Of a stretch of 55,004 nucleotides of DNA, positions 17,332 to 48,122 are shown piece by piece (the stretch's first letter is position 1; every line of letters begins with the position of its first letter). Location of the stretch: NCBI GenBank assembly GCA_022767125.1, contig JALEPZ010000001.1:1-55004 (forward strand), in the 5' to 3' direction. The position numbers and the translations under genes were made by a program. Source of the DNA: Phocaeicola plebeius. Its GTDB lineage: Bacteria; Bacteroidota; Bacteroidia; Bacteroidales; Bacteroidaceae. The notes below the pieces were generated by a model. The model was not told the DNA's origin. It made no database searches and saw nothing but the letters and a program-made list of their open reading frames with translations.

Positions 17332-17504
17332 GAAGGTGTGTCAAATAATTCAGCATCGCCTATCTAATTGTCATTCTGAGCGTAGCGAAGAATCTGAATA
17401 CATGCACTGACGCTTTACAGATTGACTTCGCCGAACGTTGTTTCTTCACTTCGTTCAGAATGACAAGCACAATAACAGGCGTTTTTAATTTTTGACACAC
17501 CCTC
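17332..17504. repeat. Palindromic repeat family A, copy 1 (full length, 173 bp)
   Basis: The ends are GAAGGTGTGTCAAA and TTTGACACACCCTC. Inside, TTGTCATTCTGAGCG...GCGAAGAA pairs with TTCTTCACTTCGTTCAGAATGACAA, and AATCTG with CAGATT. It lies between convergent ribE and lysA. The flanks are A-rich on the left and T-rich on the right, extending the stem, so it could terminate transcription from both sides. Other copies: 23947-24052, 31634-31803 and 48061-48122. Confidence 0.85.
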
Positions 17505-17512
17505 TTTTTCAT

Positions 17513-18673
17513 TTATAAAATCTCCTCTGAAAGGAAGCCTTTCGGCAGTTCCCGGCAGTTATAGACGGAAGCCATAATTTCGCCATAGGCACCGGCAGAA
17601 CGGATGGCGAGGAAATCACCCCGTTTCGTGCGGTTCATGTCGATAGCTTTGCCGAACACGTCCGATGATTCGCAAATCGGGCCTACTACATCGTACGTCT
17701 CCATCGGTTCCTCTGATGAGACATTCTCGATTTTATGGTAGGCCTGGTACAGCGCTGGACGAATCAAGTCCGACATACCTGCATCTACAATGGCAAACTG
17801 CTTGTTCGTACCCTGTTTCACATACGTTACCCGGGTGATGAGGCTGCCGCACTGTGCCACTACCGAGCGGCCCAGTTCGAAGTGCAGCGTCTGCTGCGGA
17901 CGCAGGCGCAGGTGCTTGTGGTACGTGGCAAAATACCCTGCGAAGTCGGGAATCGGCTGGCGGTTCGGATGCGCATAGTCAATGCCCAGTCCGCCGCCCA
18001 CGTTGATATGCTCCACGATAATCTGGCGGGCATACAGCTGCTCCTGCAACTCGTTGATCCGGTTACACAATGCCACGAAGTCGCCCATGTCGAGAATTTG
18101 CGAGCCGATGTGGAAATGCAGGCCCACGAACTTCACGTGTTTCATCTCCAGTGCCAAGTCGATAACCCGGTTCATGTCAGCCATGCTGATGCCGAACTTG
18201 TTCTCGGCCAGTCCCGTTGTGATATTGGCATGTGTATGTGCTCCCACATCCGGATTGATGCGGAATGCCACGCGGGCAATCTTGTTTTTTGCCGCTGCCA
18301 GTTCGTTGATGACTTCCAGCTCCGGAATCGACTCCACGTTGAAGCAGAAAATGTCGTAGTCCAGACCCAGGTTGATCTCCCAGTCTGTCTTGCCCACACC
18401 GGCATATACGATCTTGCTGGCCGGGAAACCCGCTTTGACCGCAGCCTTGATTTCACCGCCGCTCACGCAGTCTACCCCCAGTCCGCTTTCGCGGATGATG
18501 CCCAGCACCTTAGGGTTGGCATTCGCCTTCACGGCATAATGCACACAGAATTTGTTGTATTTGCCTGCTTCCTCCTGAATGGTCTTCAAGGTGTTGCGGA
18601 GCAGGGTTGCATCGTAGTAGTAAAAGGGGGTTTGTAAAGCCCCGAACTTTTCAATGGGAAAGGTTCCTTTCAT
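17513..18673 (-). CDS. lysA: Diaminopimelate decarboxylase
   Basis: This 386-residue PLP enzyme makes lysine from meso-diaminopimelate, the last step of lysine synthesis. PLP Lys lies in HYAVKANANPKVL (about residues 45-57); GVDCVSGGEIK, HFHIGSQI, NVGGGLGIDYAH and the active-site CESSDVFGK are present. It starts 9 nt after lysC ends, so the first and last enzymes of the pathway form one leftward operon. Confidence 0.95.
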   Translation of the reverse strand: MKGTFPIEKFGALQTPFYYYDATLLRNTLKTIQEEAGKYNKFCVHYAVKANANPKVLGIIRESGLGVDCVSGGEIKAAVKAGFPASKIVYAGVGKTDWEINLGLDYDIFCFNVESIPELEVINELAAAKNKIARVAFRINPDVGAHTHANITTGLAENKFGISMADMNRVIDLALEMKHVKFVGLHFHIGSQILDMGDFVALCNRINELQEQLYARQIIVEHINVGGGLGIDYAHPNRQPIPDFAGYFATYHKHLRLRPQQTLHFELGRSVVAQCGSLITRVTYVKQGTNKQFAIVDAGMSDLIRPALYQAYHKIENVSSEEPMETYDVVGPICESSDVFGKAIDMNRTKRGDFLAIRSAGAYGEIMASVYNCRELPKGFLSEEIL

Positions 18674-18682
18674 ATTGTAGTA

Positions 18683-19999
18683 TTACTTGTTAAAGAGTTC
18701 ATCGCTCAGTGCCTGCAAGGCTGCCTTCTTGTCGGATTCACGCACCAGGAAGGAGATGTTATAGTTGCTGCCTCCGAAGGAAATCATGCGTACCGGAATG
18801 TTGCGCATGGCATCGAGGGCTTTCGTTTCAAAGCCCACATTCTCCCATTCGAGGTCGCCTACTACGCAGATGATGCACATATCGTGGTCTACGGTCACCG
18901 TGCCATACTTCTTCAGGTCGTCCACGATTTCGTGCAGGTGCTTCGTGTTGTCGATGGACATGGACACACCCACCTCCGAGGTACAGATCATATCGATTGA
19001 CGTCTGGTAGCTCTCGAAGATTTCGAATACCTTGCGCAGGAACCCGTGGGCCAGCAGCATACGGCTCGACTTGATTTTGATGGCCGTAATGTTGTCTTTG
19101 GCGGCTACGGCCTTAATCTTTCCCTTTTCCGTCTCGTTGCTGATGAGTGTGCCCGGAGCGGACGGCTCCATGGTATTGAGCAGACGGACAGGAATATTGG
19201 CATATTTGGCCGGCTGTACGCACGTGGGATGCAGAATCTTTGCCCCGAAGTACGCCAGTTCGGCTGCCTCTTCGAAGTGGAGGTGGCGGACAGGCGATGT
19301 CTTGTCGACGATGCGCGGGTCATTGTCGTGCATGCCGTCGATGTCTGTCCAGATCTGGATTTCGGAAGCCTGGATGGCAGCACCGATGAGCGAAGCCGTA
19401 TAGTCACTGCCTCCGCGTTGCAGATTGTCAATTTCGCCGTACGCATTGCGGCAGATGAATCCCTGCGTGATGTAGATGTCTGCGTCGGGCTGTGCCTCCA
19501 ACTGCATGCGCAGCTTCTCGCCGATATATGTCAGGTCGGGCTCGCTGTTCTTGTCGGTACGCATGAATTCCAGTGCCGGAATCAGTACCGCCTTCACGCC
19601 CTGTTCCAGCAAGTAGTTAGTCACCATGTTGGTTGACATGATTTCCCCTTGCGCCAGAATGACCTTTTCCTCGAACAAGGTAAAGATATCTTTCGTGTAC
19701 GAACGGATGTAGTCGAATACCGATTTCACGAAATCCAGTGTCAGCTGCTTGTATTCGTCGGTAGCGAACAGCTCGTTGATGTGCTGTCTGTATTTCGACT
19801 CCAGCTTGTTGATGATTTCGTTGGCCCCTTCGGGATTCTTCTGGTAGAGGTAATCAGAAATCTCCACCAGGGTATTGGTGGTACCCGACATGGCGGACAA
19901 TACCACAATCTTCTTCTCACCGTCAGTAATCAATTTGGCCACATCTTTCATGCGCTGTGCAGAGCCTACGGATGTTCCTCCAAACTTTAAAACCTTCAT
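18683..19999 (-). CDS. lysC: Aspartate kinase
   Basis: This 438-residue enzyme phosphorylates aspartate, the first step toward lysine, threonine, methionine and diaminopimelate. The N-terminal KFGGTSVGSAQRM (3-15) and RGGSDYTASLIGAA are kinase-domain motifs; two ACT domains follow (about 300-438), the usual site of amino-acid feedback. It is monofunctional, without homoserine dehydrogenase. Co-transcription with lysA suggests a lysine-responsive isozyme, but this is inference. Confidence 0.95.
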   Translation of the reverse strand: MKVLKFGGTSVGSAQRMKDVAKLITDGEKKIVVLSAMSGTTNTLVEISDYLYQKNPEGANEIINKLESKYRQHINELFATDEYKQLTLDFVKSVFDYIRSYTKDIFTLFEEKVILAQGEIMSTNMVTNYLLEQGVKAVLIPALEFMRTDKNSEPDLTYIGEKLRMQLEAQPDADIYITQGFICRNAYGEIDNLQRGGSDYTASLIGAAIQASEIQIWTDIDGMHDNDPRIVDKTSPVRHLHFEEAAELAYFGAKILHPTCVQPAKYANIPVRLLNTMEPSAPGTLISNETEKGKIKAVAAKDNITAIKIKSSRMLLAHGFLRKVFEIFESYQTSIDMICTSEVGVSMSIDNTKHLHEIVDDLKKYGTVTVDHDMCIICVVGDLEWENVGFETKALDAMRNIPVRMISFGGSNYNISFLVRESDKKAALQALSDELFNK

Positions 20000-20049
20000 T
20001 TCTCGTCTTGTTTTAGATAATTGTTCAATAATAAATCTGTTCCAGTGCG

Positions 20050-20057
20050 CAAATATA
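20050..20057 (-). promoter_or_regulatory. lysC-lysA promoter -7 box (TATATTTG)
   Basis: The minus strand reads TATATTTG, about 50 nt before the lysC ATG, with TTG 18 nt further upstream (20078-20076). It lies between the end of the ftsE-like gene and lysC. Confidence 0.55.
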
Positions 20058-20098
20058 ATGCAAATCGGCTACACTGCAATGCAAAATGTCATTTTTTC

Positions 20099-20770
20099 TC
20101 ACACTTCTGCCAGATGATGGTCTTCGCAGCGGTACACTTTTCCCGGATACTCGGCCAAGAGGTTCAGGTTGTGGGTTGTCAGGATGATGGACGAACCCGC
20201 TGCGCAGATTTCGCGCAGCAGTTCCACAATGTTCCGTCCCGTCTCTACGTCGAGGTTGCCGGTAGGTTCGTCGGCCAGGATGATGGCCGGCTTGTTCAGG
20301 ATGGCACGGGCAATGACGATGCGCTGCTGTTCGCCGCCCGACAGCTCGTTGGGTAGCTTGTAGCCTTTGCTCTCCATCCCCACCAGCTCCAGAACCTCCC
20401 GAATGCGATCCTCAATGGCTGCCTTGTTTTTCCAGCCCGTGGCCCGCAATACGAACGACAGGTTGTCGTGTACCGTTCGGTCGGTCAGCAGCTGGAAATC
20501 CTGGAACACGATACCCAGCCGGCGGCGCAGGTCGGCTATGTGCTTGCGCTTCATCCTGCGCAGGTCGAATCCCAGCACATGAGCCTCACCCTCGGCGATG
20601 TCCACTTCACCATAGATGGTCTTGAGGAAAGTGCTCTTGCCCGAACCGACTTTCCCGATGAGGTAGACAAACTCCCCCTGACGCAACTCGAAGTCCACAC
20701 TTTTCAGTACGCCGAGTGCCTGCTGGTAGATGTCTACGCTCTTGTAACGGATGAGGGGTCCCTGGTCCAT
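20099..20770 (-). CDS. ftsE: FtsE-like ABC transporter ATP-binding protein
   Basis: This 223-residue ABC ATPase has Walker A GKVGSGKST (39-47), signature LSGGEQQR, Walker B ILADEPTGNLD and H-loop TTHN. It fits the FtsE/LolD/MacB group; short length and VDIYQQALGVLKSVDFELRQ favour FtsE. FtsE pairs with the membrane protein FtsX to control wall hydrolases at division, but no ftsX lies in the window. It starts 6 nt after hisIE and is last in the his transcript, an odd partner for histidine genes. Confidence 0.8.
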   Translation of the reverse strand: MDQGPLIRYKSVDIYQQALGVLKSVDFELRQGEFVYLIGKVGSGKSTFLKTIYGEVDIAEGEAHVLGFDLRRMKRKHIADLRRRLGIVFQDFQLLTDRTVHDNLSFVLRATGWKNKAAIEDRIREVLELVGMESKGYKLPNELSGGEQQRIVIARAILNKPAIILADEPTGNLDVETGRNIVELLREICAAGSSIILTTHNLNLLAEYPGKVYRCEDHHLAEV

Positions 20771-20776
20771 GGCCGA

Positions 20777-21391
20777 TCAGTGTTTTTTCCAGGTCGAACT
20801 GTGGCGTTCCTTCAATTCGCGGGCCAGGTCCTCAATGCGGTATCCTTTCGAAGTGAGCAGTACGATGAGGTGGTAAATCAGGTCTGCACCCTCGTAGATG
20901 AGCCGGTCGTCTGTGCCGTTGCAGGCCTCGATAACCGTTTCCACGGCTTCTTCGCCCACCTTCTGGGCCATCTTGTTCACGCCCGACCGGAACAGGCTGG
21001 TGGTGTACGAGCCCTCTGGCATCTCTTCATGGCGGCGGCAGATGAAGTCCTGCAACTCCTTCAGGAACATTACGTCCTCCTGCGCGTTGCTCTCTCCCCA
21101 GCAGGTATCCGTTCCCGTGTGGCACACCGGTCCGTCGGGATGCACCTTCACCAATAGCGTGTCGTTGTCGCAGTCGGCGGCCATCGACACCACGTGCAGG
21201 AAGTTGCCGCTTGTTTCGCCCTTCGTCCACAAGCAGTTGCGGGTGCGGCTGAAAAATGTCACCTTCCCCGTTTCCTGTGTCTTCGCCACGGCCTCCTCGT
21301 TCATGAATCCCAGCATCAGTACGTTGCGCGTTTCCGCGTCTTGGATGATGGCAGGCACCAACCCGCCCATCTTGTCAAAATTGAGTTCCAT
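20777..21391 (-). CDS. hisIE: Bifunctional phosphoribosyl-AMP cyclohydrolase / phosphoribosyl-ATP pyrophosphatase
   Basis: This 204-residue fusion carries out steps 2 and 3 of histidine synthesis. The N-terminal HisI domain (1 to about 110) has WTKGETSGNFLHV and the zinc ligands in CDNDTLLVKVHPDGPVCHTG. The C-terminal HisE domain (about 115-204) has the pyrophosphatase helix EEAVETVIEACNG. It lies between hisF and the ftsE-like gene in the leftward his operon. Confidence 0.95.
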   Translation of the reverse strand: MELNFDKMGGLVPAIIQDAETRNVLMLGFMNEEAVAKTQETGKVTFFSRTRNCLWTKGETSGNFLHVVSMAADCDNDTLLVKVHPDGPVCHTGTDTCWGESNAQEDVMFLKELQDFICRRHEEMPEGSYTTSLFRSGVNKMAQKVGEEAVETVIEACNGTDDRLIYEGADLIYHLIVLLTSKGYRIEDLARELKERHSSTWKKH

Positions 21392-21434
21392 CTCTATCTT
21401 GTTGTTAATGGTTATATTTCTGAAAATAAGTGCA

Positions 21435-22190
21435 TCAAAGGCGCACAGCTATCCCTTCCTTCCGCAGGTATTCCTTTAGGGTGGGGATGGGAATTTCGCC
21501 GAAATGGAAGACGCTGGCGGCGAGGGCTGCATCGGCCTTCCCTTCCACGAATGCTTCCTTGAAATGCTCTTTCTGTCCGGCCCCCCCCGATGCGATGACT
21601 GGGATGTCCAGTTCGTCGCTCAGTCGGGCCAATGCCCGGTTCGCGTAGCCCGTCTTCACGCCGTCGTGGTCCATGCTCGTGAACAGGATTTCCCCGGCTC
21701 CACGGTCGTTGACTTCCCGGGCCCACTCAAAGAGGTAGCGGTCGGTTTCCACACGCCCTCCGTTGAGGAAGCATTTCCAGCCCTGCGGGGTTTGTCGGGC
21801 ATCGATGGCCACCACGCACACCTGAGAGCCGAAATGGCGGGCAATCTCATCCACCAGTCCAGGTCTTCGGAGGGCCGCCGAATTGATGGACACTTTGTCG
21901 GCCCCTGCGTTCAGCAGGCGGTCCACATCGGCCAGTTCATGGATGCCTCCCCCCACGGTGAAGGGGATGCTGATGTGTGCGGCAATACGCTTCACCAGTT
22001 CGGTGAACGTTTTCCGTCCTTCGTGGCTGGCGGTAATGTCGAGGTAGACCAGTTCGTCTGCCCCTTGCTCGCTGTAGGCCTTGCCCAGTTCTATCGGGTC
22101 GCCCGCCTGCCGCAGATTCACGAAGTGAGTCCCCTTTACGGTCTGTCCGTCCTTGATGTCCAGACAGGGTATAATTCGTTTCGCTAACAT
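21435..22190 (-). CDS. hisF: Imidazole glycerol phosphate synthase, cyclase subunit
   Basis: This 251-residue TIM barrel uses ammonia from HisH to form imidazole glycerol phosphate and [20 protein letters not shown] contains the catalytic Asp11; a second Asp is in [12 protein letters not shown] and SGGAG phosphate loops are present. Its partner hisH lies two genes upstream, with hisA between. Confidence 0.96.
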
Positions 22191-22256
22191 CCTCTTTCTT
22201 TTATTCTGTTCGTTACCTTAATTATTATACTGCAATCTGTCATTCCGCTGCAGGAC

Positions 22257-22976
22257 TCAGATCCACTGGCTGAGATCCTGCAGTGCGATGCGTCCCTCGT
22301 AGAGGGCCTTGCCGAAGACAACGGCAGGTACACCGGCCTCTTCCAGCCGCCGGATGTCATCGAGGCAGCTCACTCCACCGCTGGCGATGAGGTGCAGTCC
22401 CGGATGCGCCTTCAGCATCTCGGCATACAGTTCCGTGGCCGGTCCTTCCAGCATTCCGTCGCGGTCGATGTCGGTGCAGAGCACTTTCGTCACCCCCTTC
22501 TTCACATAACCGTCGAGGAAAGGCAACAGTTCCTGCCGGCTTTCCTCCTTCCATCCGCTCACGGCAATGTTCCGTCCCTTCACGTCTGCTCCCAGAATCA
22601 TCTTCTCCGGTCCGTACTGCTCCAGCCATTTGCCGAATAGATCCGGTTGCTTCACGGCGATGCTGCCCACAGTGACCATCTGCGCCCCGTTGTCGAAGGC
22701 AATCACCAGGTCCTCGTCGCTTTTAACGCCCCCTCCGAAGTCAATGATCAGTCCCGTGGCGCTTGCGATGCGCTCCAGCGTGCGGTAGTTCACTACGTGT
22801 TGCGATGCAGCTCCGTCCAGGTCCACCACGTGCAGTCGTCGTATGCCATACGCTTCGATTTCCTTGGCTACTTCCACGGGGTTCTCGTTATACACTTTCT
22901 TAGAGGCATAGTCCCCCTTCGAGAGGCGGACACACTTGCCATCGATGAGGTCGATGGCGGGAATCAGTTCAATCAT
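22257..22976 (-). CDS. hisA: Phosphoribosylformimino-5-aminoimidazole carboxamide ribotide isomerase
   Basis: This 239-residue TIM barrel performs the Amadori rearrangement before the HisFH step. Catalytic Asp is in LIPAIDLIDGKCVRLSKGDY (about Asp8), with GGGVKSDED and SGGVS phosphate loops and LGADVKGR. It starts 6 nt after the end of hisH, and hisF follows after about 66 nt. Confidence 0.96.
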   Translation of the reverse strand: MIELIPAIDLIDGKCVRLSKGDYASKKVYNENPVEVAKEIEAYGIRRLHVVDLDGAASQHVVNYRTLERIASATGLIIDFGGGVKSDEDLVIAFDNGAQMVTVGSIAVKQPDLFGKWLEQYGPEKMILGADVKGRNIAVSGWKEESRQELLPFLDGYVKKGVTKVLCTDIDRDGMLEGPATELYAEMLKAHPGLHLIASGGVSCLDDIRRLEEAGVPAVVFGKALYEGRIALQDLSQWI

Positions 22977-22982
22977 AATTCA

Positions 22983-23573
22983 TCAGAGATTTAGGAAATT
23001 CGTAAGAATCCGTTCGCCCACCTTCCCGCTCTTCTCGGGGTGGAACTGTGTGGCGTAGAAATTATCCTTGTGCAGGGCCGAGCAGTAGCGCACAATATAG
23101 TCGGTCTGTGCGGCCGCATATTCGTTCACCGGAACGTAGAAGCTGTGTACGAAATAGACAAACTCCTCCCGATCGAAGCCCTTGAAGAGCGGACCGCACG
23201 TATGGTGCAGCGTGTTCCAGCCCATGTGGGGTACCTTGTCGGCATGACACTGCGGGCGGAACCGCTTCACATCGGTGTCGAAGATGCCGAGGCAGTCTGC
23301 GTCGCCCTCCTCCGAGTGGCGGCACATCAGCTGCATCCCGAGGCAGATGCCCAGTACGGGCTGGCGCAGGTCCTTGATGAGCCTGTCCAGCTGTTGCTCC
23401 TTCAGAAAGCGCATGGTGGTCGCCGCTTCGCCCACACCGGGGAAGATTACGCGGTCGGCCTTCATCAGGGTTTCCTTGTCGGCTGTCACCACCGGTTCTA
23501 CTCCCAGCCGGCGCAAGGCATGGTCTACCGAGAAAATATTGCCGGCGTTGTATTTGATGATTGCTACGTTCAT
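22983..23573 (-). CDS. hisH: Imidazole glycerol phosphate synthase, glutaminase subunit
   Basis: From the ATG at 23573 the protein is 196 residues and begins MNVAIIKYNAGNIFSV, the standard HisH start; an ATG 30 nt earlier adds non-homologous residues and sits close to the promoter. The class I glutaminase triad is in LGICLGMQLM (about Cys77) and TQFHPEKSGK (His, Glu). It passes ammonia to HisF. It is first in the leftward operon hisH-hisA-hisF-hisIE-ftsE. Confidence 0.94.
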   Translation of the reverse strand: MNVAIIKYNAGNIFSVDHALRRLGVEPVVTADKETLMKADRVIFPGVGEAATTMRFLKEQQLDRLIKDLRQPVLGICLGMQLMCRHSEEGDADCLGIFDTDVKRFRPQCHADKVPHMGWNTLHHTCGPLFKGFDREEFVYFVHSFYVPVNEYAAAQTDYIVRYCSALHKDNFYATQFHPEKSGKVGERILTNFLNL

Positions 23574-23600
23574 GTCTTTTTTTCTGTTTGATACCGGATG

Positions 23601-23608
23601 CAAAAATA
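23601..23608 (-). promoter_or_regulatory. his operon promoter -7 box (TATTTTTG)
   Basis: TATTTTTGCATCC on the minus strand lies 28 nt before the hisH start. No clear -33 TTG is seen. The short leader leaves no room for a histidine attenuator. Confidence 0.5.
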
Positions 23609-23691
23609 GCGAATTAATTTAGAGAAGCGCACGACTTTAGGGCTTTTTCTACGTCTGGATGAAAAAATCAGAAAAAAATATCATCCAACTC

Positions 23692-23721
23692 TTGCAGATT
23701 CAAAAAATAGTCGTACCTTTG
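23692..23721 (+). promoter_or_regulatory. tRNA-Asp promoter
   Basis: TTG (23692-23694) and TACCTTTG (23714-23721) are 19 nt apart. The tRNA begins 42 nt downstream. Confidence 0.7.
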
Positions 23722-23763
23722 CAACCGCAATCGAGAGAGATGGCAACGGTATGATGACAATTG

Positions 23764-23837
23764 GGTGCGTTAGTTCAGTTGGTTAGAATACATGCCTGTC
23801 ACGCATGGGGTCACGGGTTCGAGTCCCGTACGCACCG
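23764..23837 (+). tRNA. tRNA-Asp (anticodon GTC)
   Basis: A full cloverleaf folds: acceptor GGTGCGT/ACGCACC with discriminator G, D stem GTTC/GAAT, anticodon stem CATGC/GCATG around CTGTCAC, T arm ACGGG-TTCGAGT-CCCGT. The encoded 3' end is not a full CCA. Confidence 0.96.
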
Positions 23838-23845
23838 CAATCTTT

Positions 23846-23881
23846 ATCCGAATCTGTAGCAGAAACAGATTCGGATATTTT
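23846..23881 (+). terminator. Terminator of tRNA-Asp
   Basis: ATCCGAATCTGT (23846-23857) pairs perfectly with ACAGATTCGGAT (23865-23876), followed by ATTTTAT. Confidence 0.85.
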
Positions 23882-23946
23882 ATGTATCCGATTCCGAAAA
23901 AGTTTTCCTGAACCTCTGGAGGCAGAATCTTTATGAAGTGTCTTAT

Positions 23947-24052
23947 TATGAGGGTGTGTCAAATTTAGCGTCGCCTATCTAATTGTCATTCTGAGCTGCG
24001 TTCAGAATGACAAGCAAAACGACAGGCGTTTTAAATTTGACACACCCTCATA
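23947..24052. repeat. Palindromic repeat family A, copy 2 (internally deleted)
   Basis: Perfect 21-bp terminal inverted repeats (23947-23967 and 24032-24052) begin TATGAGGGTGTGTCAAA. The middle keeps TTGTCATTCTGAGC...GTTCAGAATGACAAGC but lacks about 70 bp of the core found in copy 1. The element runs TA-TGAGGG...CCCTCA-TA, which could reflect a TA target duplication. It lies between tRNA-Asp and the convergent pbp1A gene. Confidence 0.85.
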
Positions 24053-24073
24053 GCTTTGTGTGGAGTGCGGACG

Positions 24074-31520: not shown

Positions 31521-31545
31521 TCGGCTGCTAAGGTCGACTGGTTAT

Positions 31546-31612
31546 TCCAAACGAAGTGAGGAATCTGAAGGCATCCACGTGGTGCTCTATCAGATTCCTC
31601 ACTTCGTTTGGA
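31546..31612. repeat. Perfect 23-bp-stem hairpin (repeat type C)
   Basis: The arms 31546-31568 and 31590-31612 are exact reverse complements over 23 bp (TCCAAACGAAGTGAGGAATC at the left), around a 21-nt loop. The loop (GGCATCCACGTGGTGCTC) is close to the core of family B. There is no T-run. It starts 26 nt after the OmpA-family gene. Confidence 0.85.
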
Positions 31613-31633
31613 GTATATGAACAATAAGGAGAG

Positions 31634-31803
31634 TTAAAAAACGCCAAATTCAGCGTCGCCTATCCAATTGTCATTCTGAGCGCAGCGAAGAATCTGAATA
31701 CATGTACTGACGCTTACAGATTGACTTCGTCGAACGTTGTTTCTTCACTTCGTCCAGAATGACAAGCAAGATGACAGGCGTTTTTTGTTTTGACACACCC
31801 TCA
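31634..31803. repeat. Palindromic repeat family A, copy 3 (left end altered)
   Basis: The body matches copy 1 from GCGTCGCCTATC to the right end TTTTGACACACCCTC. The left end lacks GAGGGTGTGTCAAA and reads TTAAAAAACGCC, which matches the inverted right-end interior (AAAAAACGCCTGTCAT), as if copied from the other arm. It lies between convergent ompA-like and TRIC genes. Confidence 0.8.
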
Positions 31804-31822
31804 TCCCTGTCGGAGAATCGGG

Positions 31823-39927: not shown

Positions 39928-39941
39928 CTACTGATTTTTTC

Positions 39942-40028
39942 GGTCTGGTTCCATAGAGGGAGGGTGTGTCAAGGCAAGAAGGAAATCCTTCGGGTCCTTG
40001 TGCAACCCTCCCTCTATGGGGTCAGACC
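39942..40028. repeat. 87-nt nearly perfect hairpin at a convergent junction
   Basis: The arms pair in blocks: GGTCTG/CAGACC, CCATAGAGGGAGGGT/ACCCTCCCTCTATGG, CAAGG/CCTTG and GAAGG/CCTTC, separated by internal loops of 3+3, 4+4 and 3 to 4 nt and closed by AAAT. It starts 14 nt after the peptidase stop, and its right arm covers the stop codon of the CBM9-like gene. The left arm contains GAGGGTGTGTCAA, the family A end. Probable bidirectional terminator. Confidence 0.85.
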
Positions 40029-40693
40029 GCTTTCTCCTCCGGACCGTCGAACGCAATCTGGCCGAAGAAGTCGGGGCAGTGGAAGCAGGGTTCCGGCAAG
40101 TCAATCGGATTCCATGACAGGAAATGAGGGGTCTGCAGCAAGTCGCCACATTTGTAGAAGTTCGCCTTCCACACCTTTCCGTCGAGCGACGTTACCCGGT
40201 CGGCAAACAGGGCCGATACGGGAAACACCTCCACCAGCTCCCACGAACAGGTCCCCTTCCGTTCCTCGAACGGTGCCCTGCCCAGCGAAGCCCAGCGGCC
40301 TACGCTTTCCATCACTTCCCGGCTGGCGTGTGTACGCTGTCCGCGTATGCCGTGACCTATCAACAAGGTACCGGCACAGTTGCATTCTATGTTATAATAA
40401 AGAGGCTCCCGCTCGTCCGTCTGTATAAAAAATTCCACGCACGCATCTTCCCACACTCTTCCGTTGTCCTCGGCAGCAACTGCTCTTACGCTGGCCTCAG
40501 TCACCCGGAAATGCAGCAGGAGACTGTCTCCCGTATGCGCTATCCGGAACGCTACCTGCGGCCGGTAGGGATAGTCCGGCCAGTTCACCTGGTCAATCGG
40601 CTGGAACCCTATGCCCTGAGCGTCCAGCAAGGCCGGCACTCCTTCGGCCAGTAATCCCTGGGCCGATACTTTCGGTACAAATAATGTTTTCAT
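40022..40693 (-). CDS. Carbohydrate-binding family 9-like protein
   Basis: This 223-residue protein has no signal peptide. It shows the beta-sandwich pattern of CBM9-like domains: VAFRIAHTGDSLLLHFRVTE, RVWEDACVEFFIQ and LYYNIECNCAGTLLIG. Related Bacteroidales proteins are annotated as carbohydrate-binding without known ligand. The lack of a signal peptide makes a cell-surface role doubtful. Its last codons lie in the right arm of the hairpin at 39942-40028. It is divergent from the HAD gene with nearly touching promoters. Confidence 0.75.
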   Translation of the reverse strand: MKTLFVPKVSAQGLLAEGVPALLDAQGIGFQPIDQVNWPDYPYRPQVAFRIAHTGDSLLLHFRVTEASVRAVAAEDNGRVWEDACVEFFIQTDEREPLYYNIECNCAGTLLIGHGIRGQRTHASREVMESVGRWASLGRAPFEERKGTCSWELVEVFPVSALFADRVTSLDGKVWKANFYKCGDLLQTPHFLSWNPIDLPEPCFHCPDFFGQIAFDGPEEKAV

Positions 40694-41393: not shown

Positions 41394-41424
41394 TTGCATA
41401 ATTGGACAAAAAGCCCTACCTTTG
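41394..41424 (+). promoter_or_regulatory. tRNA-Pro promoter
   Basis: TTG (41394-41396) and TACCTTTG (41417-41424) are separated by 20 nt; the tRNA starts 23 nt after the box. Confidence 0.7.
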
Positions 41425-41446
41425 CATCGCTTTTCAGAAAAGCCTT

Positions 41447-41521
41447 CGGGGTGTAGCGCAGTCCGGTTAGCGCACCTGCTTTGGGAGCAGGGGGTCGTGG
41501 GTTCGAATCCCGCTACCCCGA
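41447..41521 (+). tRNA. tRNA-Pro (anticodon TGG)
   Basis: Cloverleaf: acceptor CGGGGTG/TACCCCG (one G-T pair) with discriminator A, anticodon stem CCTGC/GCAGG around TTTGGGA, T arm GTGGG-TTCGAAT-CCCGC. CCA is not fully encoded. Confidence 0.96.
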
Positions 41522-41531
41522 CAGAGAGTCA

Positions 41532-41562
41532 AGGAGTTACTTTTAGAGTAGCTCCTTTTTTT
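41532..41562 (+). terminator. Terminator of tRNA-Pro
   Basis: AGGAGTTAC (41532-41540) pairs with GTAGCTCCT (41548-41556), one T-G pair, followed by seven or more T. Confidence 0.85.
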
Positions 41563-41567
41563 AGGTT

Positions 41568-41732
41568 TGCCTGTCCGAAAACCTTGGGCCACCTATCCAA
41601 CTGTCATGCTGAACATCGTGAAGCATCTGAATACATCCCTTTTGCGCTAACAGATTTCTCACTTCGTTCGAAATGACAGGAAAAAAGGAAAATGGAAAAC
41701 AATTCTAGGAAAGCCTGGGGGAGGTGTGTCAA
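41568..41732. repeat. Intergenic palindromic repeat, family B, copy 2
   Basis: It aligns with copy 1 (166-332) from GCCTGTCCGAAAACCTTGG to AACAATTCT and GCCTGGGGG. CTGTCATGCTGAAC...GTGAAG pairs with CACTTCGTTCGAAATGACAG. The right end runs into GGGGGAGGTGTGTCAA, a near-match to the family A end. It lies between convergent tRNA-Pro and tRNA-Arg. Confidence 0.8.
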
Positions 41733-41782
41733 TCATCAAGACTTCCCTAGTCAGTATGGGGCAGAAGAAAGAAACGGAGCAG

Positions 41783-41823
41783 AAAAAAAAGGATTCCGCT
41801 TGGGCAACTTGCCGGCAGAATCC
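41783..41823 (-). terminator. Terminator of tRNA-Arg (leftward)
   Basis: On the minus strand GGATTCTGC pairs with GCGGAATCC (one mismatch) and is followed by eight T. Confidence 0.85.
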
Positions 41824-41840
41824 CTTGTTTCGGGGAGGAG

Positions 41841-41914
41841 TGATTCGGCTGCGACTCGAACGCAGAACCGTCGCCTTAGAAGGGCGATGCTCTATCCAGT
41901 TGAGCTACCGAACC
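41841..41914 (-). tRNA. tRNA-Arg (anticodon TCT)
   Basis: Minus-strand cloverleaf: acceptor GGTTCGG/CCGAATC (one G-T pair) with discriminator A, D stem GCTC/GAGC, anticodon stem TCGCC/GGCGA around CTTCTAA, T arm CTGCG-TTCGAGT-CGCAG. It decodes AGA, a codon rare in most genes here but frequent in the partial gene at the right end. Confidence 0.96.
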
Positions 41915-41930
41915 AGCCTTAATTGCGGTG

Positions 41931-41961
41931 CAAAGGTACAACCTTTTTTGGACTTCTCCAA
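41931..41961 (-). promoter_or_regulatory. tRNA-Arg promoter
   Basis: On the minus strand TTG (41961-41959) and TACCTTTG (41938-41931) are 20 nt apart, with the tRNA starting 17 nt further on. Confidence 0.65.
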
Positions 41962-42005
41962 CTTTCCAGGCAAATTTCTGTGCTTCTTTTGCCTACATTC
42001 GTCGT

Positions 42006-43301
42006 TTACGAATATTTTCGCGGATAACGGACCACGATGCTGCCCAGGACAAACAGCGCCAAGGCCATCGGATAATACAGATGACGGATGATGGCGATGG
42101 GGGAGAGCTGGGACAGTTCGGCGGCAATCAGCATCTGTGCGCCGTAGGGAATGACCCCTTGCACGATACACGAGAACGTGTCGAGCAGACTCGCGCTTTT
42201 CCGTTTGTCCACCTTGAACCGTTCGGCAATGTCGCTGGCCAGCGGGCCGACGGTGATGATGGCGATGGTGTTGTTGGCCGTACACAGGTTGGCCAGCCCC
42301 ACCAGGGCCGCGATGCTCAGTTCCGCCCCGCGCTTGCTGTTTACGCGGCGTGTCAGGGTGTGCAGGATGTAGTCCACCCCTCCATTGAAACGGATCAGTT
42401 CCAGCATTCCGCCGGCCATCAGGGTCACAATGATCAGTTCGCCCATGCCCAGCATTCCTTCCGACAGCGCGTTGAACCACCCGAACACATCGTAGCTGCC
42501 TTCCGCCAGGCCGATGCAGCCCGTCGACAGGATGCCCAGCAGCAGGACCAGCGTGACATTCACGCCTGCAAACGCCGTGCCCAGCACGATGAGGTAAGGA
42601 ATCACTTTCACCCACTCGATGGCCACCGGTGCGTCTGATACCTGGATGTTCCATCCCCTCACCGTGTAGTAGGCCACTACCAGGAGTGCAGCCGGCAGGG
42701 CAATCAGGAAGTTGACCCGGAACTTGTCGCGCATGGCGCAACCCTGCGTGCGGGTGGCCGCAATGGTGGTGTCGGAGATGAACGACAGGTTGTCGCCGAA
42801 GAAGGCGCCGCCTACCACCAGGGCTGTCATGAAACTGGCTTCCATGCCTGTCCGTTCGGCAATGCCGGCCGCGACGGGCACGAGGGCGACGATGGTGCCT
42901 ACCGACGTGCCGATAGACAGCGATACGAAGCAGGCGGCCAGGAAGATGCCTCCCAGCAGCAGCTGGCCGGGCAGCAGGAAGAGGGTGAGGTTGACCGTAG
43001 CGTCTATCGCCCCGATGCTTTTGGCCGACTGGGCAAAGGCACCTGCCAGGATGAAGATCCAGATCATGAGCAAGATGTTCTTGTTGGCGGCTCCTGCCGA
43101 GTATTGCAGGATGCGGTCGTTCAGGCTCAGCCCTCGGGTGATGGCCACGGCATAGACCGAGGCAACTAGGAAGGCGATGGTGATGGGTACTTTGTAGAAA
43201 TCGCCCACGATGAGGGAGGTAACCAGATAAAGGCAGAGGAATACCAGCAAGGGCGACAAGGCCCAGAGGCTGGGCCGAGGAGTAATGGAAGTCAGTTTCA
43301 T
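42006..43301 (-). CDS. NhaC-family Na+/H+ antiporter-like membrane protein
   Basis: This 431-residue protein has about eleven hydrophobic segments, starting LLVFLCLYLVTSLIVG and ending YYPMALALFVLGSIVV. The family region GAFFGDNLSFISDTTIAATR, with acidic and polar residues inside a membrane segment, is well kept, as is ACFVSLSIGTSVGTIVA. It should exchange sodium and protons, but some NhaC proteins exchange organic acids. It lies 130 nt after the altronate dehydratase gene on the same strand, so an anion-exchange role for sugar-acid metabolites is possible. Confidence 0.85.
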   Translation of the reverse strand: MKLTSITPRPSLWALSPLLVFLCLYLVTSLIVGDFYKVPITIAFLVASVYAVAITRGLSLNDRILQYSAGAANKNILLMIWIFILAGAFAQSAKSIGAIDATVNLTLFLLPGQLLLGGIFLAACFVSLSIGTSVGTIVALVPVAAGIAERTGMEASFMTALVVGGAFFGDNLSFISDTTIAATRTQGCAMRDKFRVNFLIALPAALLVVAYYTVRGWNIQVSDAPVAIEWVKVIPYLIVLGTAFAGVNVTLVLLLGILSTGCIGLAEGSYDVFGWFNALSEGMLGMGELIIVTLMAGGMLELIRFNGGVDYILHTLTRRVNSKRGAELSIAALVGLANLCTANNTIAIITVGPLASDIAERFKVDKRKSASLLDTFSCIVQGVIPYGAQMLIAAELSQLSPIAIIRHLYYPMALALFVLGSIVVRYPRKYS

Positions 43302-43430
43302 AAACGTTCTGAAGGTTAGAGGGGAGACACAGCGATACGGAGGAGGCCCCGGCGTTCCGGCCGGGAGGGGGAGGACAGGACCGCTTCCCTGTCGCTGTGT
43401 CCGTGTTTGCTTGGATAAAATGGCTGGCTG

Positions 43431-44927
43431 TTACAGCGTCACGCCCGTCTTGAAGATGGCAATTTCGCGGTAGCCTTTCTTTTCGTTGTTCACCGGTTCG
43501 CCGCTGGCCACACGGATGACATAGTCGATGAAGCGCCGGCAGGTCTGGTCCATCGGTTCGTCTTCCACGATGACGCCCGCATTGAAGTCAATCCATCCCG
43601 GCTTGTGGGCGGCCAGACGCGAGTTGGTCGACACCTTCATGGTCGGTACGTACGTGCCGAAGGGAGTTCCGCGTCCGGTGGTGAAGAGCACCAGGTGACA
43701 GCCGCAGGAGGCCAGGGCCGTGGCGGCCACCAGGTCGTTTCCTGGAGCTGAGAGCAGGTTCAGTCCCTTGGTCTGCAGGCGTTCGCCGTAGGGCATCACC
43801 CCTTGCACATAGCTCTTTCCGCATTTCTGCGTACAGCCCAGCGCCTTCTCTTCCAGGGTAGAGATGCCGCCTGCCTTGTTGCCCGGCGACGGATTTTCGC
43901 CCACCGGTTCGCCGTGCGAGAGGAAGTACTCCTTGAAATCGTTGATGAGGTGCACCGTCTGGTTGAACAGCTCGGGCGTCTTGCAGCGGTTCATCAGGAT
44001 GGTTTCGGCACCGAACATTTCCGGCACTTCGGTCAGTACCGACGTGCCTCCCTGGGCCACCAGATAGTCCGAGAACATGCCCAGCAGGGGGTTGGCCGTG
44101 ATGCCCGAGAAACCGTCCGATCCGCCACACTTCAGGCCCACCCGCAGTTCCGACAGCGGGATGTCCGTGCGCACGTCGGTCTTGCATCGGGCGTAGAGGT
44201 CGCGCAGGATGGCCATGCCTTCCTCGAACTCGTCGTCCACCTTCTGGGCCACCATGAAGCGGATGCGCTCTTCGTCGTAAGGACCCACGAACTCGCGGAA
44301 GATGTCCGGCTGGTTGTTCTCGCAGCCCAGTCCCACTACCAGCACACCGCCGGCATTGGGATGGAGCACCATGTCGCGCAGAATCTTCTTCGTGTTCTCA
44401 TGATCGTCGCCCAGCTGCGAGCAGCCATAATTGTGGGGGAAAGCCACGATGGCATCCACACCTTCGCCCTTCGTCTCCTGGCGCAAAGCCTCGGCCAGCT
44501 GGTTTACGATGCCGTTCACACAGCCCACGGTGGGAATAATCCACAGTTCGTTGCGCACTCCCACGTCGCCGTTCTTCCGCCGGTAGCCCTTAAAGGTACG
44601 GCCCTCCTGGGCGATGTCCAGGTTCACCTCTACCGGCTGGTACGTGTATTCCAGCAGTCCGGCCAGGTTGGTCTTGATGTCCTTCTCGCAGATCCACACC
44701 CCCTGGGGGACCGGCCGGATGGCATGTCCGATGGGGTAGCCATACTTGATGATGTCTTCGCCTTCGGCCAGGTCCTTCAGCGTGACCTTGTGTCCGGCAG
44801 GTACATCCGTTTTCAAGACGATGCATTGTCCGTCCGTTTCGATGGTTTCGCCGCATTTCAGCGGAGCAATCGCCACTGCCACATTGTCGGCAGGGTTGAT
44901 TTTCAGGTAAGTTTTTTCCATTGTCAA
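43431..44927 (-). CDS. uxaA: Altronate dehydratase
   Basis: The protein has 498 residues, like E. coli UxaA. The N-terminal SAF domain (about 1-95, DNVAVAIAPLKCG, GEDIIKYGYPIGHAI) and the C-terminal dehydratase domain (GYRRKNGDVGVRNELWIIPT, LKCGGSDGFSG, GCTQKCGKSYVQGVMPYGE) are both present. It converts D-altronate to 2-keto-3-deoxygluconate in galacturonate breakdown. It starts 15 nt after the LacI regulator. The next two steps are encoded by the divergent kdgK and eda. uxaB and uxaC are not in the window. Other acid dehydratases in this family (e.g. galactarate) are less likely given the neighbours. Confidence 0.9.
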   Translation of the reverse strand: MTMEKTYLKINPADNVAVAIAPLKCGETIETDGQCIVLKTDVPAGHKVTLKDLAEGEDIIKYGYPIGHAIRPVPQGVWICEKDIKTNLAGLLEYTYQPVEVNLDIAQEGRTFKGYRRKNGDVGVRNELWIIPTVGCVNGIVNQLAEALRQETKGEGVDAIVAFPHNYGCSQLGDDHENTKKILRDMVLHPNAGGVLVVGLGCENNQPDIFREFVGPYDEERIRFMVAQKVDDEFEEGMAILRDLYARCKTDVRTDIPLSELRVGLKCGGSDGFSGITANPLLGMFSDYLVAQGGTSVLTEVPEMFGAETILMNRCKTPELFNQTVHLINDFKEYFLSHGEPVGENPSPGNKAGGISTLEEKALGCTQKCGKSYVQGVMPYGERLQTKGLNLLSAPGNDLVAATALASCGCHLVLFTTGRGTPFGTYVPTMKVSTNSRLAAHKPGWIDFNAGVIVEDEPMDQTCRRFIDYVIRVASGEPVNNEKKGYREIAIFKTGVTL

Positions 44928-44942
44928 TTCCTTCTTTATATC

Positions 44943-46028
44943 CTAAAATTGTGAATACTGTTTCTTGTGTTCACTTAGGTAGAATTCAATGTTCTCCACG
45001 CTCAGCAGGTGGATGGGCATGTAGTTGCACTCGCAGATGGGCTTGCGCAGGATGAGGTGGTTACACAGGCTCTCCACGCAGCTGAATCCCTGCAGGGTGG
45101 GCTGTTGCGCGATGATGAAGTCGATGTAGCCCTTCCGCAGGCAGTCCACGTTGCGTTTCAGCAGGTCGTAGCCCATCAGGTGGAAGCCCGTGCGTCGGCG
45201 TTTCATCATATACTCGCCCACGATATACGCCTTCGAGTTGAACGTGATGCCGTGGCTGACGTCCGGATGCTGGTTGAAGAACTCGTCGAGGGCGGCTTCG
45301 TTGCGCGAGGGGTCCTTCGGGTCCAGGTTCATCTCCCAGGTCCTGAGCCGGTAGCTGTGCTGGGCCAGATAAGCCTGGAATCCTTCCTCCCGGTGCAGCT
45401 GCTGGTTCGAGCCGAGCCGGCTTTCGTAGAGCTGCCGGAAGAGGACAATCTCGTTGCATTCGCCCGTCATGAGCTTCATCATCCTGGCGGCAAAGTAGCC
45501 GCTCTGGCTGGCATGCTGCCCATAGAACGTGAGAGGACGCAGTTCGGGAATGTTCGAGTCGATGAACACGAATGGCACATTCAGCCGGTGCAGTTCGCTC
45601 GTCACGAGTTCGGTTTCACTCTTTTCGGTCGGCGCGATGACCATTCCGTCGGGCGGCGACAGCAGCAGGTGCAGTCCGACCCGGGTGAATGAGCCGTATT
45701 CGTACTGGTCGTAGTATTCGATGGCGATGGAAATGTTGAAATCGGAATACTCGCGGATACAGTTCCGGAATCCGGCTTCCACATCGTCCCAATACTCGCT
45801 TTCCTGATGCTGGGGAATCAGGCACACAAAGTTGTACTTCTTGTTCGAAGCTAATGCACTGGCATACATGTTGGGCTGGTAGTCGAGTTGCTGAAGGATG
45901 GCTTCCACCTTCTTGCGGCTGGCTTCCGATACGCCCGACCGATCGTGTAGCACTCTGTCGACAGTGCCAACCGATACTCCGGCCTGTTGGGCAATGTCCT
46001 TGATGCGTATTCTCTCGTTCTGTTTCAT
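44943..46028 (-). CDS. LacI-family transcriptional regulator
   Basis: This 361-residue protein has an N-terminal helix-turn-helix and hinge (IRIKDIAQQAGVSVGTVDRVLH, LDYQPNMYASALAS) and a periplasmic-binding-like effector domain. It heads the leftward uxaA transcript and faces kdgK-eda, so it most likely controls sugar-acid use. The effector could be a hexuronate or KDG. A fitting palindrome lies at 46133-46152 over the kdgK promoter. Confidence 0.92.
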   Translation of the reverse strand: MKQNERIRIKDIAQQAGVSVGTVDRVLHDRSGVSEASRKKVEAILQQLDYQPNMYASALASNKKYNFVCLIPQHQESEYWDDVEAGFRNCIREYSDFNISIAIEYYDQYEYGSFTRVGLHLLLSPPDGMVIAPTEKSETELVTSELHRLNVPFVFIDSNIPELRPLTFYGQHASQSGYFAARMMKLMTGECNEIVLFRQLYESRLGSNQQLHREEGFQAYLAQHSYRLRTWEMNLDPKDPSRNEAALDEFFNQHPDVSHGITFNSKAYIVGEYMMKRRRTGFHLMGYDLLKRNVDCLRKGYIDFIIAQQPTLQGFSCVESLCNHLILRKPICECNYMPIHLLSVENIEFYLSEHKKQYSQF

Positions 46029-46090
46029 GTCTCTACCTTATTTATATATAAAGAGGTTATCCACTATTTAGGTTAGAAAAAAATTCGTCA

Positions 46091-46098
46091 CAAATATA
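46091..46098 (-). promoter_or_regulatory. lacI-type gene/uxaA promoter -7 box (TATATTTG)
   Basis: TATATTTGTGACG on the minus strand lies 62 nt before the regulator ATG. Its upstream part overlaps the kdgK promoter. Confidence 0.45.
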
Positions 46099-46107
46099 TA
46101 ACTTTTT

Positions 46108-46137
46108 TTGGTATATAAAAAATAAATCGTACCTTTG
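46108..46137 (+). promoter_or_regulatory. kdgK-eda promoter
   Basis: TTG (46108-46110) and TACCTTTG (46130-46137) are 19 nt apart. The expected transcription start is near 46144, in the middle of a palindrome. The leader is about 100 nt. Confidence 0.7.
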
Positions 46138-46152
46138 TGTGCGTACACAAAG
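46133..46152. promoter_or_regulatory. Probable LacI-family operator over the kdgK promoter
   Basis: CTTTGTGTGCGTACACAAAG is a 20-bp palindrome with 9 of 10 matched pairs and a central CG, the usual form of LacI-family operators. It overlaps the -7 box and likely start site, so binding would block kdgK-eda. Confidence 0.65.
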
Positions 46153-46244
46153 CATTTATTTCTGCTGTCAGCTGAAAAGTTGAACCAGGAATGGGGCTTT
46201 TGGCGAGAACTTTACAACTTATTTATCAATAAAAATACTCTACG

Positions 46245-47267
46245 ATGGGAAAAATTGTAACTTTAGGCGAAATCATGTTGCGGTTGTCGACTCCGGGAAA
46301 CACCCGTTTCGTACAATCCGATAGTTTTGATGTGGTATATGGCGGCGGCGAAGCCAATGTGGCGGTCAGCTGTGCCAACTATGGCCATGATGCCTACTTT
46401 GTCACGAAATTGCCGAAACACGAAATCGGCCAGTCGGCCGTGAACGCCCTGCGCAAATACGGCGTGAAGACCGACTTCATTGCCCGCGGCGGAGACCGTG
46501 TGGGCATTTATTATCTCGAAACCGGCGCTTCCATGCGTCCCAGCAAGGTCATCTACGACCGCGCTCATTCTTCGATTGCCGAAGCCGACCCGAGTGACTT
46601 CGATTTTGATGCCGTAATGGAAGGGGCCGACTGGTTCCACTGGTCGGGCATTACTCCGGCCATTTCCGACAAGGCGGCCGAACTCACCCGCCTGGCCTGT
46701 GAGGCTGCGAAGCGCCACGGCGTCACGGTATCTGTCGACCTGAACTTCCGCAAGAAGCTGTGGACCAAGGAAAAAGCACAGTCCATCATGCGCCCTCTCA
46801 TGCAGTATGTGGATGTCTGCATCGGCAATGAAGAAGATGCCGAACTCTGCCTCGGCTTCAAGCCCGATGCGGATGTGGAAGGCGGCAAGACCGATGCCGA
46901 AGGCTACAAGGGCATCTTTACCGCCATGGCCAAGGAATTCGGCTTCAAGTATGTCATCTCTACGCTGCGCGAATCCTTCTCGGCTACCCACAACGGCTGG
47001 AAGGCCATGATCTACAACGGCGAAGAGTTCTATACTTCCAAGCGCTACGACATCAACCCCATCATCGACCGTGTGGGCGGCGGCGACTCGTTCTCAGGTG
47101 GCATCATCCACGGCCTGCTCACCAAGCCCAACCAGGGGGCTGCCCTCGAATTTGCCGTGGCTGCTTCGGCCCTGAAGCATACTATCAACGGCGACTTCAA
47201 CCTCGTTTCCGCCGAAGAAGTGGAGGCATTGGCCGGTGGCGATGCCAGCGGACGTGTACAGCGTTAA
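46245..47267 (+). CDS. kdgK: 2-Dehydro-3-deoxygluconokinase
   Basis: This 340-residue PfkB-family kinase phosphorylates KDG to KDPG. MGKIVTLGEIMLRLSTPG and YGGGEANVAVSCANYG form the N-terminal sugar site; DRVGGGDSFSGGIIHG (about 279-294) is the PfkB signature with the catalytic Asp, having GGGDSF instead of GAGDAF. The eda gene follows after 38 nt. It stands behind the LacI-type operator. Confidence 0.93.
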   Translation: MGKIVTLGEIMLRLSTPGNTRFVQSDSFDVVYGGGEANVAVSCANYGHDAYFVTKLPKHEIGQSAVNALRKYGVKTDFIARGGDRVGIYYLETGASMRPSKVIYDRAHSSIAEADPSDFDFDAVMEGADWFHWSGITPAISDKAAELTRLACEAAKRHGVTVSVDLNFRKKLWTKEKAQSIMRPLMQYVDVCIGNEEDAELCLGFKPDADVEGGKTDAEGYKGIFTAMAKEFGFKYVISTLRESFSATHNGWKAMIYNGEEFYTSKRYDINPIIDRVGGGDSFSGGIIHGLLTKPNQGAALEFAVAASALKHTINGDFNLVSAEEVEALAGGDASGRVQR

Positions 47268-47305
47268 TTCAACCAATCGTTAATCATTAAGTACGTAATA
47301 TAAAC

Positions 47306-47974
47306 GTGGCAAGATTTGACAAGATAGCCGTGTTGGACAAGATCGGTTCGACCGGCATGGTGCCTGTGTTCTATCACAAGGACGCCGAAGTGGCCAAGAA
47401 AGTAGTAAAGGCCTGTTATGAGGGCGGAGTCCGCGCCTTCGAGTTCACCAACCGTGGCGATTTCGCCCACGAAGTGTTTGCAGAAGTGGTGAAGTTCGCC
47501 GCCAAGGAGTGTCCCGAAATGGCCATGGGCGTAGGCTCTGTTGTTGACCCGGCTACGGCTGCCCTTTACCTGCAGCTTGGGGCCAACTTCATCGTGGGTC
47601 CGCTCTTCAATCCCGAAATTGCCAAGGTCTGCAACCGTCGGCTGGTGGCTTACACTCCCGGTTGCGGCAGTGTGTCCGAAGTAGGTGCTGCCCAGGAAGT
47701 GGGCTGCGACCTCTGCAAGATTTTCCCCGGCGATGTGCTCGGTCCGAAACTGGTGAAGGGGCTGCTGGCTCCGATGCCGTGGTCCAAGCTGATGGTCACC
47801 GGTGGCGTGGAGCCTACTCAGGAGAACCTCACCCAATGGATCAAGGCCGGCGTGTTCTGCGTGGGCATGGGCTCCAAGCTCTTCCCCAAGGACAAGGTGG
47901 CTGCCGAAGACTGGGCCTACGTCACGGACAAGTGTCGGGAAGCGCTGGGCTACATTGCTGAAGCCCGGAAATAA
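47306..47974 (+). CDS. eda: KDPG/KHG aldolase (2-dehydro-3-deoxyphosphogluconate aldolase)
   Basis: This 222-residue class I aldolase splits KDPG into pyruvate and glyceraldehyde 3-phosphate. Catalytic residues lie in AFEFTNRG (Glu) and [16 protein letters not shown] (Schiff-base Lys about 138). [16 protein letters not shown] is the phosphate site. The start is GTG at 47306; no in-frame ATG fits. With uxaA and kdgK it completes the altronate-to-pyruvate route. Confidence 0.93.
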
Positions 47975-48019
47975 GTCCAGGGAACTATTTCATTTTGTTT
48001 AAAGGTGTATAAAGCGGAA

Positions 48020-48055
48020 AACGTCGCAGGGGAAACTTCCCTTGCGGCGTTTTTT
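48020..48055 (+). terminator. Terminator of kdgK-eda
   Basis: AACGTCGCAGGGGAA pairs with TTCCCTTGCGGCGTT (two non-canonical positions) around a short loop and runs into TTTTTT. It lies about 45 nt after the eda stop. Confidence 0.85.
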
Positions 48056-48060
48056 CATGA

Positions 48061-48122
48061 GAGGGTGTGTCAAATTCAGCATCGCCTATCTAATTGTCAT
48101 CCTTTTATTTTCACACACCCTC
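48061..48122. repeat. Palindromic repeat family A, copy 4 (62 bp, mostly deleted)
   Basis: It begins GAGGGTGTGTCAAATTCAGC, keeps ATCGCCTATCTAATTGTCAT, then jumps to TTTTCACACACCCTC. The right end has TCACACA where the others read TGACACA. The whole central hairpin is gone. It lies just behind the eda terminator, between eda and the convergent gcvP. Confidence 0.8.

Follow-up and report, generated by a model that had tools for sequence, protein, structure and literature searches.

Family A palindromes at convergent gene junctions of Phocaeicola plebeius as likely derivatives of terminator-targeting IS1182-family elements

Why should every junction between two facing genes in a stretch of bacterial DNA hold a large palindrome? 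The question is raised by a 55,004-nt stretch from Phocaeicola plebeius, here called the window, which is an entire contig (C3) of a 3.12-Mb genome assembly that consists of 125 contigs and is 92.8% complete. The original prediction, made from the letters of the window, described palindromes at six convergent junctions and assigned most of them to two repeat families, A and B. Our analysis suggests an answer for family A. These elements are likely non-autonomous derivatives of insertion sequences (IS) of the IS1182 family that target terminator hairpins, which would account both for their convergent bias and for the exchange of one terminator for another. Family B is a separate element.

Palindromes at the convergent junctions

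Genes in the window were called with a caller trained on its own genome (an author's script, not a standard annotator) and tRNAs with ARAGORN; family A and B matches in the gaps were detected with nhmmer at E<1e-3. This resulted in six convergent gaps (17322-17512, 23839-24073, 31521-31822, 39928-40021, 41523-41839 and 47975-48154), and the claim that each of them carries a large palindrome was confirmed. Family A or B sequence occurs in 5 of the 6 convergent gaps, but in 0 of the 34 co-directional and 0 of the 6 divergent gaps of the window (Fisher p=4e-6); the sixth convergent gap contains a hairpin with 34-nt arms. The names previously given to the junction genes are backed by Pfam at the nine proteins tested, namely Lum_binding (riboflavin-synthase type), Orn/DAP decarboxylase, transglycosylase/transpeptidase, OmpA, glycine transporter (TRIC-like), peptidase S9, CBM9_2, KDPG aldolase and GDC-P. 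A search of the window against Rfam at gathering thresholds returned nothing beyond three tRNAs. The elements are as follows.

17332-17504: A1, full family A element of 173 nt, between a ribE-like gene (+) and a lysA-like gene (-)
23950-24049: A2, family A element of 100 nt, 23 nt from the stop codon of pbp1A
31538-31638: second core-type palindrome of the OmpA/TRIC gap, before A3; nhmmer match to B1
31646-31804: A3, family A element with its left end lost; right end 19 nt from the stop codon of the TRIC-like gene
39941-40029: hairpin between an S9 peptidase gene (+) and a CBM9-like gene (-)
41567-41724: B2, family B element, beyond a terminator-like site of tRNA-Pro (41531-41557)
48061-48122: A4, internally deleted family A element of 62 nt, 31 nt from the stop codon of gcvP
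160-340: B1, family B element that lies next to the contig start and precedes a phosphofructokinase-like gene

A1 fills its gap almost completely, with 9 nt to the ribE-like stop and 7 nt to the lysA-like stop, and is flanked by an A-tract (left) and a T-tract (right). The A and B copies of the original prediction stand, with two modifications. The hairpin at 39941-40029 is not a kind of its own; its inner part (39960-40010) contains a pair of family A ends in degenerate form, the A end at 39960 being GAGGGTGTGTCAA, and 19 nt of palindromic flank (outward pairing, G-U allowed) lie outside this pair. The junction palindromes hence comprise five of family A type and one of family B. Furthermore, the family A copy of the OmpA/TRIC gap is present, but its left end is gone and the second palindrome precedes it. 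B1 adjoins the contig start and its gap type is not assignable.

T-run terminators had also been proposed at three of the junctions. The terminator scan lists the sites of tRNA-Asp (23845-23877, outside A2) and tRNA-Pro. The hairpin and T-run of eda, beyond which A4 lies, were recognised by eye only, as was a hairpin with an adjoining A-run between B2 and tRNA-Arg; neither is on the scan's list.

Family A ends and IS1182-family insertion sequences

Family A copies are bounded by the end pair GAGGGTGTGTCAAA / TTTGACACACCCTC, which is sometimes degenerate on one side. Their interiors vary widely in length; where both ends were recognised (16 copies), the elements measure from 30 to 173 nt. The exact end gave 33 matches in the genome, at 21 places, versus 1 match for a reversed-pattern control. 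Comparison of 61 genomes of the genus, including the present one and with one genome per species, detected the 12-nt A end in 38 of them. One relative, G041, contains an intact 1.85-kb IS bounded by GAGGGTGTGTCAAAATGATGC; its transposase frame of 531 residues matches the IS1182 model NF033551 with 466 bits versus a cut-off of 270, and also PF13751 and PF05598. The GAGGGTGTGTCAAA ends are common to the family A copies and the ISs of G041, G001 and G051, while related IS ends read GAAGGTGTGTC and GAGGCTGTCTCAAA. IS1182 copies above the NF033551 cut-off occur in 10 of the 61 genomes. Family A thus shares its terminal inverted repeats with IS1182-family elements and is short, transposase-less and multi-copy, as a miniature inverted-repeat transposable element (MITE) of that family should be.

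The closest known case is IS1272, an IS1182-family element of staphylococci. According to the available parts of the reports, its targets are hairpins, including several terminators, and the hairpin undergoes a blunt partial loss (PMC4923244), and a replacement of inverted repeats without target duplication has been proposed for it (PMC5678879). Family A is a variant of this known type of insertion. The likeness to IS1272/TnSha1 extends, as far as the available parts of PMC4923244 and PMC5678879 go, to the transposase family, to hairpin or terminator targets often just past genes, to partial or complete removal of the hairpin and to the lack of a reported duplication. The present case differs in its Bacteroidaceae-like host, in the short, transposase-less copies of the own genome, in a convergent bias that receives an explanation, in one IS copy that duplicated its hairpin, and in parent IS ends most of which are inward terminator-like hairpins, a feature not described in those parts of the staphylococcal reports. 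BrickBuilt, from Porphyromonas gingivalis, is likewise an intergenic MITE of Bacteroidales, but it has a minisatellite interior and reaches 991 nt, and the available part of its description does not mention terminator replacement (PMC4596501). Titles and abstract openings, with most subscription papers outside this survey, yielded no IS1182-type MITEs in Bacteroidales and no IS1182 ends acting as terminators.

Two observations on the own genome may be added. An N-terminal remnant of an IS1182-type transposase is present at C62:11606-11785, with an IS1182-like end nearby as judged by eye. Two family A places, one on contig C63 and one on C78, have some 40 nt of external flank in common, which would suit the duplication of a larger unit.

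Gene context and target sites

The sample of the genome comprises 40 stretches selected by contig number, plus another 20 on contigs where matches were known; because the genome searches with A1 and B1 scored 40 of 153 and 40 of 144 candidates, copy numbers are lower bounds. Sample and window together contain 59 A/B clusters, of which 51 are classifiable (23 convergent, 21 co-directional and 7 divergent) and 8 lie at edges. Convergent gaps make up 15% of the intergenic bases, and the excess of clusters in them is significant (p=2.8e-7); in the contig-number set alone, 7 of 20 clusters are convergent versus 16% (p=0.03). The window is an outlier in this respect. Outside it, 18 of 46 A/B clusters in gaps are convergent, and 18 of 80 convergent gaps, in a sample drawn partly from contigs with known matches, hold A/B sequence versus 5 of 6 inside (Fisher p=0.005).

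The strong convergent bias is limited to places that keep an A end, where a single recognised end was taken as the element. The 21 A-end places comprise 14 convergent, 4 co-directional, 0 divergent and 3 at contig edges; 10 of 14 outside the window are convergent. A spread in proportion to gap length, which the original prediction had set against a junction preference, is not what family A displays (14/18 versus 15% of intergenic bases). A null that counts every gene 3' end equally predicts 26-31% convergent places, again well below 14/18 (p 6e-6 to 5e-5). Family A copies lie mostly within about 30 nt of a stop codon. The nearest facing stop is at most 35 nt away in 13 of 18 own A places and 16 of 21 IS copies of relatives, compared with 17% for intergenic positions drawn at random from the window's genome.

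The flanks of 46 insertions were compared: 16 of the 21 own A places, the hairpin at 39941, eight short elements of relatives and 21 IS copies (32 were listed above the cut-off and 22 taken, one of which was dropped for an unrecognised left end). The mean outward pairing run is 3.11 versus 1.51 after permutation, a value reached by 0 of 20,000 permutations. The 16 own copies alone give 2.44 versus 1.02 (11 of 20,000), and the pairing of the 21 IS copies alone was reached by 150 of 20,000. Exact repeats of 3-8 nt directly next to the ends are absent from 45 insertions, and no duplication of 9-150 nt at 85% identity or more was detected in 45 of the 46. The insertions thus display the features of the IS1272 type, namely complementary flanks or a hairpin target and, with one exception (L245), no target duplication. 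The parent IS copies have an A-tract on one side and a T-tract on the other: in 17 of 21, both strands show four or more T among the first 8 nt outward, compared with 0 of 21 further out, at nt 13-20.

The 3' flanks of lysA and pbp1A provide a comparison of occupied and empty places, based on the best 30 loci for each gene from the 61 genomes. IS1182-type ends occur at lysA in the own genome and in G001, and at pbp1A in the own genome and in G003; those of G001 and G003 belong to other IS1182-type short elements. Among the flanks without such ends, 23 of 28 for lysA and 25 of 28 for pbp1A possess a hairpin that exceeds the 99th percentile of dinucleotide shuffles, starting 5-42 nt and 0-59 nt after the stop, respectively. 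With A2 in place, the first 100 nt after pbp1A score 28 (threshold 25). In G013, the closest sister, ribE and lysA converge as they do here, but their junction contains a long hairpin and lacks an element; ribE was not found beside lysA in the other 28 loci, so that the comparison covers the lysA side only. The two places were hence occupied by IS1182-type elements in different species.

These data bear on the earlier idea that the repeats insert behind terminators. It comes close for family A, but rather than behind the terminator hairpin, the elements appear to sit where the hairpin itself would be, and they probably replaced terminators, as reported for staphylococcal IS1272. The persistence of terminators at tRNA-Asp and eda is in line with this: A2 and A4 lie near the stops of the opposite-strand genes (pbp1A and gcvP, respectively), and it is the terminators of these two genes that they may have replaced.

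The choice of target can also explain why the places are convergent. In element-free gaps of the sampled own genome, strong hairpins bordered by A/T tracts at both ends are 60-78% convergent, depending on the thresholds (9-20 hairpins per setting), while strong hairpins of any kind are 28-50% convergent. The share of 14/18 for family A does not differ from that of the two-sided terminator-like hairpins; hence the target explains the position and no selection for a barrier is needed.

The parent ISs carry terminator-like structures of their own. Of their 42 ends, 40 (15 of 17 distinct ones) fold, starting with the outermost bases, into a hairpin followed by T's that reads into the IS, compared with 0 of 420 internal windows; the T-run is weak in two distinct end types (7 ends). 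A short family A copy at C11:39227 has a stem followed by eight T's and resembles an intrinsic terminator.

The following mechanism is the likely explanation of these results. Family A would represent non-autonomous, MITE-like derivatives of an IS1182-family IS that recognises hairpins, chiefly intrinsic terminators with a preceding A-tract and a following T-tract. The IS would usually replace part or all of the stem-loop without target duplication. As symmetric target hairpins lie mostly between convergent genes, the elements would do so too. Since the IS ends form a hairpin with inward T's and short derivatives keep the inverted ends, one terminator would probably be swapped for another. The replacement of the hairpins by transposition as such and the continued termination are what we infer; two-way termination by family A elements is plausible.

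Several results weigh against this interpretation. In the own genome PF13751 has 0 matches and NF033551 four weak or partial ones, among them the remnant on C62, in an assembly of the completeness given above; no intact IS1182 transposase was thus detected. Unless an intact IS is hidden in an assembly gap, the family A copies would be relics. This is compatible with descent from such an IS, because non-autonomous relics can outlive their partner. The gene context in relatives, called with a model trained on relatives, is less biased: 10 of 21 IS copies are convergent, 10 co-directional and 1 divergent, and ten other elements of G002 and G015 divide into 5 and 5, at loci where convergent gaps, element gaps included, make up about 30% of the gap bases. 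The 181-nt MITEs of relatives are convergent in 4 cases, co-directional in 1 and at an edge in 2, and one short element of G008 is co-directional. Five own A places lie 47-253 nt from the facing stop. Stop proximity is not specific to family A, as family B lies near stops in 12 of 26 cases (p=5e-4) without flank pairing. The eight short elements of relatives on their own give a weak pairing signal (run 840 of 20,000; pair counts 1,743-14,718 of 20,000). A1 itself scores below the threshold for a strong local hairpin in the 100 nt that follow lysA (16 versus 23). The flanks of the own copies are only modestly T-rich (5 of 16 versus 3 of 16 further out), which may be due to age and adds no support. 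Finally, two perfect copies of a whole 66-bp hairpin (2322-2387 and 4228-4293) enclose L245, an IS copy of G011; here the target was duplicated, not replaced.

The interpretation turns a positional pattern into a testable mechanism, that of a terminator-swapping transposon. If true, inverted-repeat-replacing transposition would not be confined to staphylococci but would also take place in Bacteroidaceae-like bacteria; this would hint at how insertions escape selection, and offer a source of bacterial terminator turnover. We give even chances to a broader proposal, in which IS1182-type elements of the genus would be mobile terminators that erase one hairpin and supply one at each end, which would be neutral for both convergent genes. 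Their collapsed descendants would then be working two-way terminators of orthologous genes, replaced independently across species.

Alternative explanations and family B

The palindromes might instead be maintained as two-way terminators between facing genes, whatever their origin. We rate this explanation, which is compatible with terminator-targeting IS1182 derivatives, as only slightly less than an even proposition. Short copies such as C11:39227 and the above-chance pairing outside the ends are in line with it. However, 62 of the 80 convergent gaps sampled outside the window contain no A/B element, and target preference alone produces the same bias, so that the presence of repeats at convergent junctions need not reflect selection.

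It is unlikely that family A consists of ordinary repeats like the repetitive extragenic palindromes (REPs) and bacterial interspersed mosaic elements (BIMEs), inserting anywhere and surviving only downstream of genes, where no promoter is damaged. Such repeats resemble the present ones as intergenic palindromes with inverted core arms, and in the available part of PMC3733652 REPs are reported mostly from convergent and co-directional gaps; REPs are also targets of some ISs, according to the accessible part of PMC1525189. Core-only matches are frequent in the genome and the genus, and the core is common to families A and B. But family A is larger and bounded by IS1182-type ends, its convergence exceeds the equal-3'-end null, and survival bias alone, rejected for this reason, predicts neither complementary flanks nor the A/T tracts that abut the parent IS copies. 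Repeats driven by a REP-associated tyrosine transposase (RAYT) were rejected, as the RAYT model PF01797 has 0 matches in the genome (its control registers in 5 of 14).

Formation of the hairpins in place, by template switching or inverted duplication, is very improbable: flank palindromes of 9 nt at a place on C48, 19 nt at 39941 and, by eye and with a one-base offset, 11 nt at a place on C60 (scored run 0) would fit it, but the same end sequence recurs at unrelated sites and on an intact IS, with 33 exact ends versus 1 for the control.

Terminator-targeting IS1182 derivatives are the likely explanation for family A; family B is a different case. The two families have an inverted core that is 64-67% similar (17347-17447 versus 178-278), but their ends differ. 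The best 30 family B copies are convergent in 11 cases (11 of 26 classifiable), co-directional in 12, divergent in 3 and at an edge in 4, and together with the 12 of 26 near a stop this distribution suits REP-like repeats. Flank pairing of 23 full-length family B rows, two of which (L032 and L054) are the same place, equals the permuted value. The exact end AGNCTGTCCGARAA was detected in 20 of the 60 other genomes of the genus with at most 6 matches per genome, and no facing pair at IS size is among the matches listed. Family B was considered as an IS1182 element, as its ends resemble GAGGCTGTCTCAAA; this was not retained since its flank pairing is not above chance and the matches listed include no partner IS, and family B is left unclassified. 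None of the three readings offered earlier (insertion behind terminators, survival away from promoters and two-way barriers) is established for family B.

In most of the family B copies compared, including those at 160-340 and 41567-41724, G-runs lie outward of the ends; their orientation is direct and not inverted, with GGGGGA at the left and TGGGGG at the right end. A 35-nt core pattern was found in nine stretches of named records, from which near kin of the window were possibly left out; its carriers are metagenome-assembled genomes (MAGs) of Bacteroides and Bacteroidaceae, a Chlorobiales MAG and a Mucilaginibacter. The exact core is present at four loci of the Chlorobiales MAG and one of Mucilaginibacter (L341, L342, L343, L344 and L347), far from Bacteroidaceae.

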